Origin: Frankia nepalensis
GTDB lineage: Bacteria; Actinomycetota; Actinomycetes; Frankiales; Frankiaceae
NCBI RefSeq assembly: GCF_016786325.1
Contig: NZ_JADWYU010000115.1
Span: 1-64,000 of the forward strand
Direction of reading: 5' to 3'
Length of the DNA stretch: 64,000 nucleotides
In this document: positions 61,473 to 63,066 of the stretch, piece after piece
Numbering within the stretch: position 1 is the stretch's first letter
Layout: each line of letters opens with the position of its first letter
Notes under the pieces: model-generated
Told to the model about the DNA's origin: nothing
Database searches by the model: none
Seen by the model: only the letters and a program-made list of their open reading frames with translations
Made by a program: the position numbers and the translations under genes

Positions 61473-62207
61473 GTGACCAAGCTGAACCAGATCATCGCGC
61501 TCGAAAAGGGCGTCAAGGCCCGCGCCAGCCGCGAGCTGGAGGAGCTGCGCGCGTCGACGCAGAAGGACGCGCTGCTCGCCGGCATCTCCCGGACGTACCA
61601 GCCGCGCGACGAGGACGGCGACCCGCTGCCGCCCGAGGGCACCAAGGTCCAGGTCCGGGTCGAAGAGGTGCTCGCGCGGGTGTCCGCCGTCCTGACCCGG
61701 CTGTTCGACGTCGTCGCCACGAAGGACATCGCGAACGGCTCGGCGCGGGCGGACGTCGTCGTCGACGGTGAGACGCTGCTGCGCGACGTCCCGGTGGCCT
61801 ACCTGCTCTTCCTGGAGAAGCAGCTCGCCGACCTGCAGTCCTTCCTGGCGAAGCTGCCGGTGCTCGACCCGGCCGAGGACTGGTCGTGGGACTCGGCGGC
61901 CGGCGTCTACCGCACGCCGACGACGAAGACCGTGCGGTCCCGCAAGGTGCCGAAGGTGCTCGTCAAGTACGAGGCCACCGAGCACCATCCGGCGCAGACC
62001 GAGGTGTTCACCGTCGACGAGCCGGTCGGCGACTGGTCGACGGTGAAGTTCTCCGGCGCGCTGCCGGCCGAGCGGCGCGGTCAGCTGCTCGACCGGGTCA
62101 TCGCGCTCGGAGAGGCCGTCAAGGTCGCCCGCGAGGCCGCCAACCAGTTCGACGTGACCGACCAGGCCTACGGCAAGCTGGTCTTCGACTACCTGTTCGC
62201 CCGATAG
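61473..62207 (+). CDS. Conserved hypothetical protein upstream of the permuted tRNA-like genes
   Basis: The 244-residue soluble protein starts at a GTG with AAGGGAG 8 nt upstream. I recognise it only as a conserved hypothetical protein of actinobacteria and some phages; no function is known to me. It begins with a charged helix (TKLNQIIALEKGVKARASRELEEL), then a QKDALLAGISRTYQPRDEDG block, a middle part with VLTRLFDVVATKDIAN and VDGETLLRDVPVAYLLFLEKQLADL, a basic strand region (TKTVRSRKVPKVLVKYEATEHHPAQ) and a C-terminal helix. Lys/Arg-rich segments could bind nucleic acid. It is directly followed by a structured region with two tRNA-like sequences whose halves are swapped, which makes an RNA-related role worth testing. 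Confidence 0.8.
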   Translation: MTKLNQIIALEKGVKARASRELEELRASTQKDALLAGISRTYQPRDEDGDPLPPEGTKVQVRVEEVLARVSAVLTRLFDVVATKDIANGSARADVVVDGETLLRDVPVAYLLFLEKQLADLQSFLAKLPVLDPAEDWSWDSAAGVYRTPTTKTVRSRKVPKVLVKYEATEHHPAQTEVFTVDEPVGDWSTVKFSGALPAERRGQLLDRVIALGEAVKVAREAANQFDVTDQAYGKLVFDYLFAR

Positions 62208-62482
62208 GCTGCCGCCCGTCGGCCCACGGCCGGCGGGCTCTCACCTTTCACTGATCATGGGAGACGACGTGACCATGATCTCAACCCGTGACCAGCGCCA
62301 GCCCGAGAGCGAAGATCGACCATCCGTCAGGTCCGGTCGGGCGCGCCAGCGCCCGACGGCGGAGCGGCGAGGGGCGCGCAAGCGCCCTTGGAGCCGACCG
62401 CCCCACGAGTTCCCGTCTGGAGCGGCGGGATGCGTCCCCCAGGGGGGCGCGAAAGCTGAGACTCTTACTCAAGATCACAAAG
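62208..62482. other. Structured leader between hypothetical gene and first tRNA-like unit
   Basis: These 275 bp hold an 8-bp perfect inverted repeat (GATCATGG 62253-62260, CCATGATC 62273-62280), the second copy of the dispersed element (62336-62404) and a GC-rich stem near 62432-62450. No gene can be supported. Confidence 0.5.
62336..62404. repeat. Dispersed structured element, copy 2
   Basis: The opening hairpin is a perfect 9-bp stem (GTCGGGCGC 62336-62344, GCGCCCGAC 62349-62357). It is followed by GGCGGAGC, a 6-bp stem (GGGCGC 62372, GCGCCC 62382) and TTGGAGCCGACCGCC. It matches the ends of the element at 1563-1681, with the hairpin bases changed in pairs. Confidence 0.5.
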
Positions 62483-62557
62483 ATCGGTGACAGTGAGGGT
62501 TCGAATCCCTCCCTCGGCTCAGCCCGCCGGGGTAGCCCAAGGGCAGAGGCAGCCGGT
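62483..62557 (+). tRNA. Circularly permuted tRNA-like gene 1 (3' half first)
   Basis: The 3' half is at 62483-62519: anticodon-stem strand ATCGG (62483-62487), T-stem GAGGG/CCCTC with T-loop TTCGAAT (62495-62511), acceptor strand CCTCGGC (62512-62518) and discriminator T. After a 6-nt linker the 5' half follows at 62526-62557: acceptor GCCGGGG, T8-A9, D-arm GCC...GGC with A14, A15 and GG, then anticodon strand CCGGT (62553-62557). Acceptor strands pair 7/7 (one G-U) and anticodon strands 5/5 (one G-U). U8-A14 and A15-U48 contacts are possible. CCA is not encoded. The anticodon loop is split and cannot be read with certainty. Anticipated product: a tRNA or tRNA mimic made by circularisation or rejoining. 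Confidence 0.75.
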
Positions 62558-62630
62558 CATGACTCTTAGTCTCTCGCTCCACAACTCAACACCGGTCACA
62601 TCGCCGGCCCGGCCGACGGCTGGCCTTACA

Positions 62631-62702
62631 GGTCGAGGTTGCGGGTTCAAGCCCCGCGCGGCGCTCCACCTGCGCCGCTGGCTCAATAGGAAGAGCGCGA
62701 CC
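62631..62702 (+). tRNA. Circularly permuted tRNA-like gene 2 (3' half first, CCA encoded)
   Basis: The 3' half is at 62631-62668: anticodon strand GGTCG (62631-62635), 5-nt variable loop AGGTT, T-stem GCGGG/CCCGC with T-loop TTCAAGC, acceptor strand GCGGCGC (62658-62664), discriminator T and encoded CCA. Only CCT separates it from the 5' half at 62672-62702: acceptor GCGCCGC, TG, D-stem GCTC/GAGC with loop AATAGGAA (A14, A15, G18 G19, A21), G26 and anticodon strand CGACC. All 7 acceptor pairs, all 4 D-stem pairs, all 5 anticodon pairs and all 5 T-stem pairs are Watson-Crick. This is a complete, well-formed tRNA body in permuted order. The anticodon loop is split between the two outer ends. 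Confidence 0.82.
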
Positions 62703-62762
62703 ACGTGAGACTGACCAGACCCGTCAACGACACGGACTGGCGTGCGCAAGGTGACCATCCCC

Positions 62763-62793
62763 CGGGGCCCAGGGAAGGGTAATCCCTGGGCTC
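62763..62793 (+). terminator. Strong hairpin after the permuted tRNA-like pair
   Basis: GGGGCCCAGGGA and TCCCTGGGCTCC form a 12-bp stem (one G-U) around a 7-nt loop, about 60 nt after the last tRNA-like half. It probably ends the transcript. It is followed by ACCA, but the loop is not a T-loop, so I do not call a third tRNA. Confidence 0.6.
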
Positions 62794-63066
62794 CACCAAT
62801 CTCAGCCGGGTGGCAGGCCGTCCGTAAGCCGACGCATGGACTCGGCGCGGGAAACGCCGTCCGCGCGGGCGGGCGGTTCCCACGGAAAGCCAGTGGACGA
62901 GGTGGCGAGCACCCATCCAGGCGGCGGGCTTTCGGCACCGCGGCGCTCACTCGGGGGCGGGCGCCGGCGCGCGGGCCAAGCGGCCTCAGGATCCGCTCTC
63001 GGATCCTGAGGCCGCTTCCGCGACATGGGCGATGCCCGCCGCTGGGGAGGTACGTACCCGGTAGGT
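62794..63066. other. Intergenic region before the P450 gene end
   Basis: Apart from the P450 terminator at 62978-63017 I see no gene or repeat here. Confidence 0.5.
62978..63017 (-). terminator. 18-bp perfect hairpin terminator of the P450 gene
   Basis: AAGCGGCCTCAGGATCCG (62978-62995) and its exact complement (63000-63017) enclose a 4-nt loop. It lies 49 bp past the P450 stop, reading the minus strand, and could stop transcription from both sides. Confidence 0.85.

Follow-up and report, generated by a model that had tools for sequence, protein, structure and literature searches.

Two permuted tRNA-like modules within a conserved structured RNA region adjoining the DUF7873 gene in actinomycetes and phages

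We analyzed a window of 64,000 nucleotides (nt) from contig NZ_JADWYU010000115.1 of an actinomycete genome (10.7 Mb), in which a gene of the DUF7873 family is followed directly downstream, on the same strand, by a conserved structured region of ~390 nt (62411–62798). This element carries 2 modules that resemble transfer RNA (tRNA) and are encoded in permuted order. Module 2 had been described in an earlier note, made from the DNA sequence alone, as an entire tRNA body with its 3′ half encoded before its 5′ half, a description borne out by the parse of the sequence and by a tRNA call after rejoining of its halves. Module 1, lying 75 bases upstream at 62484–62556, had been overlooked. The features of the locus are collected in Table 1.

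Table 1. Features of the DUF7873 locus and the adjoining RNA element (window coordinates)
Feature	Coordinates	Strand	Details and support
DUF7873 (PF25283) gene	61473–62207	+	244 amino acids, GTG start; Pfam E = 1.3e-103
5′ hairpin, TCCCGT-CTGGAGCG-GCGGGA	62411–62430	+	40/40 and 42/42 cells paired, 7 species
Second hairpin	62432–62450	+	41/42 cells paired, 1 compensatory change (genus alignment)
GAGACT, 5′ strand of helix extending module 1	62458–62463	+	Pairs with AGTCTC (62568–62573); 42/42 paired, genus-invariant
Permuted tRNA-like module 1	62484–62556	+	Parsing script, genus alignment, rejoining; R1 62.7 bits
Module 1, anticodon-stem strands	62484–62488, 62552–62556
Module 1, T arm	62495–62511
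Module 1, acceptor 3′ strand	62512–62518
Module 1, spacer	62519–62525		TCAGCCC
Module 1, acceptor 5′ strand	62526–62532
Module 1, D arm	62535–62550
Conserved core strand, TCTTAGTCTCTCGCTCCA	62565–62582	+	Streptomyces/phage counterpart TCAGAYTMTCGCTCYA; alignments A2 and A9
Helix extending module 2	62615–62725	+	62615–62623 with 62715–62725; 51/61 genus cells paired
Permuted tRNA-like module 2	62631–62702	+	Sequence reading, parsing script, genus alignment, rejoining; R1 65.6 bits
Module 2, anticodon-stem strands	62631–62635, 62698–62702
Module 2, T arm	62641–62657
Module 2, acceptor 3′ strand	62658–62664
Module 2, U73 and CCA	62665–62668		Followed by CCT
Module 2, acceptor 5′ strand	62672–62678
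Module 2, D arm	62681–62696
3′ hairpin	62764–62798	+	12 bp, 7-nt loop, ACCA end; 84/84 cells paired, 2 compensatory pairs, 7 species

The first half of module 2 consists, in order, of the anticodon-stem 3′ strand GGTCG, the variable segment AGGTT, the T arm GCGGG-TTCAAGC-CCCGC, the acceptor 3′ strand GCGGCGC, and T-CCA; the second half, after CCT, comprises the acceptor 5′ strand GCGCCGC, the D arm GCTC-AATAGGAA-GAGC, and the anticodon-stem 5′ strand CGACC. The stems are all Watson-Crick paired, as had been claimed, with 7/7, 5/5, 4/4, and 5/5 pairs returned by a parsing script, and we confirm that the anticodon cannot be read. No tRNA was identified in the window by ARAGORN or by Rfam at gathering score. 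When the 5′ half, a neutral artificial loop, and the 3′ half were joined in silico, the halves of both window modules formed canonical cloverleaves that ARAGORN called tRNAs, against 0 of 2,000 control constructs built from shuffled halves. All 82 modules rejoined in this way were called tRNAs, and 43 of 82 were called with their partners mixed. Two equally strict modules were found in the window and none in 10 mononucleotide shuffles of it.

With a 361-bp query, the element was identified in 6 of the 7 other genomes of the genus (Pseudofrankia), with ~355 bp aligned at 77–84% identity, and it was not found in other genera of the family. Among 58 relatives, DUF7873 is confined to exactly the 7 genomes that bear the element and adjoins it each time. 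In a seven-species genus alignment, with rows taken by homology and no selection on pairing, 285 of 287 stem cells of the 2 modules were paired. Two-sided changes affect the anticodon and acceptor stems of both modules and, in module 1, the T stem as well. Paired strands that vary without compensation would, according to the earlier note, have spoken against a tRNA-like body; compensatory changes were found here, and the claim survives. An exact-motif scan for AGTCTCTCGCTCCACAAC in the named genomes returned 4 Frankia/Pseudofrankia contigs, and no similar motif was found in the viral contigs. Two further matches (L027 and L028) were rejected as coincidences within coding sequences.

The DUF7873-RNA locus is kept well beyond this genus, among soil bacteria and many tailed phages, with DUF7873 present in 118 of 247 sampled Streptomyces (about half), in Nonomuraea, and in 73 phage records from Vibrio, Gordonia, Rhizobium, Klebsiella, Serratia, Arthrobacter, Rhodococcus, and cyanobacteria. 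Under a strict linkage rule, requiring at least 1 permuted module on the same strand and no more than 900 nt downstream of DUF7873, a module was identified in 52 of 56 DUF7873 loci and 2 modules in 29, these being locus counts and not counts of independent events because many of the loci are closely related. The same rule detected no module upstream or on the opposite strand and 0–1 in shuffled copies. R1, a covariance model of the permuted modules, detected modules in 3 of the 4 loci that failed the strict rule. A hold-out of 24 further viral contigs encoding DUF7873, obtained by protein search, had a downstream module in 22 cases, and at the miss L120 the contig stops 134 nt past the DUF7873 gene. 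R1 was also run on 396 actinomycetote genomes, where the best-match loci that were fetched and checked adjoined DUF7873, adjoined Rsr, or were tandem ordinary tRNA genes, and most of the weaker matches were ordinary tandem tRNA pairs (Asn-Asn, Ala-Ala, Gly-Gly). Tandem tRNA genes of this kind mimic the permuted arrangement, but the window has no ordinary tRNA by ARAGORN, and a chance origin is rejected on the conservation, the linkage controls, and the shuffles. One Streptomyces genome (G665:C1) had 2 DUF7873 copies of equal score close to opposite ends of a 9.8-Mb contig (26964–27686 and 9777627–9778349), the placement that terminal inverted repeats would give.

Conservation is not limited to the modules. 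RNAalifold, given 18 whole RNAs (Pseudofrankia, Streptomyces, Nonomuraea, and phages), detected with no prior guidance the T, acceptor, and D stems of each module, together with a strongly covarying helix beneath module 2, and 34 of 53 pairs showed two-sided changes. The helix corresponding to the module 2 extension covaries strongly in alignment A9 (columns 287–294 with 412–419). Outside the modules, the core conserved from bacteria to phages includes CTGAAAYTGA before module 1 and TCAGAYTMTCGCTCYA between the modules, where alignment A9 has the core TCAG/TTAG-NYTMTCGCTCYA, and CTTAAACG follows module 2 in every row of A9 except Pseudofrankia. The 5′ hairpin is nearly invariant and therefore has no covariation support; its loop GGAGCG (62419–62424) is able to pair with CGCTCC (62575–62580), possibly as a pseudoknot. 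The 3′ hairpin resembles a tRNA acceptor/T minihelix whose third pair, in 6 of 7 species, is a G-U wobble, and Streptomyces RNAs also have a 3′ hairpin. In Streptomyces loci L042 and L062, a plain short hairpin stands in place of module 1 and the remaining RNA is kept, and the spacing at Streptomyces locus L071 suggests that module 1 was likewise replaced there, so that the arms look like exchangeable peripheral domains. We infer that 62411–62798 forms a single structured RNA from one transcript. Promoter and terminator consensus scans found none, a weakly informative result as the genome is GC-rich. The GAGACT/AGTCTC pairing is reminiscent of P7 of a group I intron; the other core elements were not seen, Rfam reported no such intron, and this candidate was rejected.

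The earlier note had also held that the RNA must be circularized and reopened, or otherwise rejoined, into a tRNA, and this part is not supported, with both ends of the supposed anticodon loop running on into the longer conserved helices of the larger RNA. Just 11 of 79 distinct modules have T where U33 would fall; given this lack of conservation and the replacement of module 1 by a plain hairpin at some loci, splicing into a decoding tRNA is unlikely. The corresponding explanation, that these are true permuted tRNA genes whose transcripts are cut at the leader/trailer helix, joined at their ends (e.g., by RtcB), and opened at the acceptor by RNase P and 3′ processing to yield a decoding tRNA in the manner of Cyanidioschyzon merolae, agrees with the perfect rejoined cloverleaf, the mutual pairing of leader and trailer, and the RtcB genes of the genome. 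The permuted tRNA genes of C. merolae and archaea likewise encode the 3′ half first and are split in the anticodon loop. In contrast, the present element has no conserved anticodon loop, lies inside a larger RNA conserved beyond the modules, and occurs in bacteria and phages, and ordinary tRNA genes are already plentiful in the host; we consider this explanation very improbable. The discriminator and CCA cut both ways, as 35 of 102 distinct modules (about a third) encode them and the other two-thirds lack CCA. Divided by type with a rough pattern, CCA was present in 5 of 5 Pseudofrankia module 2 sequences, 8 of 14 phage module 1 sequences (as ACCA), and 1 of 26 Streptomyces module 2 sequences, so acceptor-end processing is possibly feasible for some modules and not general.

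Encoded CCA also bears on the possibility of an RNA like transfer-messenger RNA (tmRNA) or tRNA whose arms would be charged with amino acids and act on the ribosome or donate aminoacyl groups. Permuted acceptor strands with CCA in the loop and a spacer between them reproduce the layout of two-piece (circularly permuted) tmRNA, many modules have A73 or U73 with encoded CCA (among them the distinct phage module 1 arms with ACCA counted above), and the 3′ hairpin is minihelix-like with its G-U wobble at the third pair. However, CCA is absent from module 1 of every Pseudofrankia and from most Streptomyces module 2 arms, and Rfam tmRNA matches in related loci fall far below the cut-off; at gathering score, the tmRNA covariance model did not match anywhere in the window. 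The element further differs from two-piece tmRNA in its intact D arms, its tandem arms, and its DUF7873 partner, and a tmRNA-like role is unlikely in our assessment. In phage modules L079:2589–2679, L080:2560–2654, and L081:2464–2556, CCA or a close variant of it comes after the acceptor 3′ strand, and then a partly hairpin-forming spacer, ~28–30 nt in total, leads to the acceptor 5′ strand.

The closest known likeness is to YrlA, a noncoding Y RNA that is bound by Rsr and has a tRNA-like domain. DusA and TruB modify YrlA, which tethers PNPase in the Rsr ribonucleoprotein (RNP) (PMC8394870; PMC7790460). In both kinds of RNA, a longer basal stem carries the permuted tRNA-like domain (T arm, acceptor, acceptor, D arm), the RNA is encoded beside a protein partner, and tandem copies occur in actinomycetes. 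The YrlA model (RF02553, E-value mode) matched 62613–62730 over its full length with 31.6 bits (E = 5.5e-5), below the gathering score of 69 bits, which the other loci of the genus (28.2–36.4 bits) also failed to reach. Most rsr-linked RNAs of the same phylum score below it too (38.4–43.5 bits), so the cut-off alone does not separate the element from YrlA; what sets it apart is the partner gene, the missing CGAAGTGC/GGTTCTCGG motif, and persistence without Rsr. The linked gene is DUF7873 and not rsr, which lies on a different contig of this genome, accompanied by 2 permuted modules of its own. Rsr was not found in 3 element-bearing genomes (G001, G003, and G007), one of them a single contig. 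The Ro-binding motif strings CGAAGTGC and GGTTCTCGG, the only ones tried, are present in the rsr-linked locus L014 and absent from 62405–62800. The element might be an outlying YrlA, with tandem Y RNAs acting with the Rsr (Ro60) of the cell though encoded elsewhere, and the full-length match and the tandem permuted modules at rsr loci of the same genome and of Streptomyces accord with this; nevertheless, the element tracks DUF7873 rather than Rsr, and we judge an outlying YrlA unlikely, if somewhat less so than the explanations above. The element also departs from YrlA in its ~390-nt length, its own conserved core, its usual 2 arms, and its wide occurrence in phages. Common descent of the DUF7873-linked and rsr-linked RNAs is plausible because both kinds often carry 2 modules.

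At the rsr locus of this genome (L014; G000:C166), the permuted pair (367–440 and 528–595) lies directly upstream of the Rsr/Ro60 gene with the flanks CCGAAGTGC and GGTTCTCGG, and the first of these RNAs reaches no more than 42.9 bits with Rfam, so the gathering score misses actinomycete YrlA RNAs. Weak matches to a tRNA in standard order (L014:490–561, L012:492–563, and L016:490–561) have their T arm in common with the second rsr-linked permuted module, possibly as 2 alternative tRNA-like folds. In another actinomycetote lineage, locus L106 (G393:C105) encodes a distant Rsr homologue (29% identity) and 2 permuted modules with acceptor spacers of 2 nt, making the acceptors nearly closed.

Taken together, we favor the view that the element probably consists of 2 permuted tRNA-like arms within a single ~390-nt noncoding RNA, which forms a conserved two-part locus with DUF7873 and a putative RNP. 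DUF7873 would bind the conserved RNA core, as the linkage of gene and RNA suggests, and the permuted arms would present the tRNA elbow and acceptor to tRNA-recognizing enzymes. The layout of the element, its compensated conservation, the fold of the arms, and the near-constant linkage to DUF7873 have computational support. Since about a third of modules encode CCA in the acceptor loop, that loop may be nicked by RNase P and 3′-processing enzymes in the manner of two-piece tmRNA; a decoding tRNA would not be required as a product.

Several observations weigh against this view. The DUF7873 loci include many close relatives, and the 56 loci amount to fewer independent cases. The module finder favors pairing, which makes covariation across the modules it collected partly circular, the genus and RNAalifold alignments less so. 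No module was identified at the cyanophage locus L084 or at L121, and the modules might be separate small RNAs and not one molecule. The predicted structure of DUF7873 (mean predicted local distance difference test [pLDDT] 87, predicted template modeling score [pTM] 0.63) does not clearly resemble any known RNA-binding fold, which leaves the linkage as the evidence for the RNP step. Fold searches with the model returned nothing at E <0.001 in PDB or BFVD, and the DUF7873 profile had no significant match in PDB sequences, PHROGs, PADLOC, or NCBIfam. The best structural match on a second look, 3kdq_A, a protein of unknown function (Z 9.4, root mean square deviation 9.3 over 147 residues), was not taken as evidence, and, as there is no clear structural relative, the predicted structure says nothing on function.

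Permuted tRNA mimicry itself is already known from YrlA, and bacterial mimics of this type have so far been tied to Ro60/Rsr; DUF7873 adds a second, apparently separate partner. The DUF7873-linked RNA is larger, usually has 2 mimic arms, and is spread over about half of the sampled Streptomyces and over phages from those of actinomycetes to those of Klebsiella and cyanobacteria; it has a fair chance of being a class of its own. More tentatively, and with somewhat less confidence than in the view favored above, we suggest that DUF7873 and its RNA may represent a previously undescribed class of RNP, independent of Ro60/Y RNA, whose permuted tRNA mimics are carried by phages of very different hosts, often in tRNA clusters, to act on the host tRNA-handling machinery. 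The literature covered by our search, which was partial, mentioned neither DUF7873 nor permuted tRNA together with phage genomes. The DUF7873 family, of unknown function, gains a testable partner in this RNA.

DUF7873 loci were found in phage tRNA clusters, and the RNA accounts for unannotated gaps of at least 400 nt behind the DUF7873 gene in such clusters. This location, along with the patchy occurrence in Streptomyces, would also suit a tRNA decoy that inhibits nucleases or modification enzymes in phage/host conflict over tRNA, with DUF7873 as its carrier protein, and the YrlA tRNA-like domain has been proposed as a possible inhibitor of anticodon nuclease (PMC7790460). A decoy is nonetheless very doubtful, as such nucleases usually act on the anticodon loop, which the arms lack, and DUF7873 matches no defence family.

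Annotation of these loci calls for caution, since tRNA finders miss permuted RNAs or call false tRNAs within them. In Klebsiella phage FBKp24, the tRNA-Sup-TTA of the deposited record (L085:2326–2405) overlaps a permuted module, as do ARAGORN calls of tRNA-Leu and tRNA-Phe in Streptomyces loci L039:2268–2357 and L040:2264–2350, and all 3 calls are probably false. On a contig of the window's genome apart from most of its other tRNA genes (G000:C357:10141–13485), ~30 tRNA genes, some of them low-scoring, are packed within 3.4 kb.
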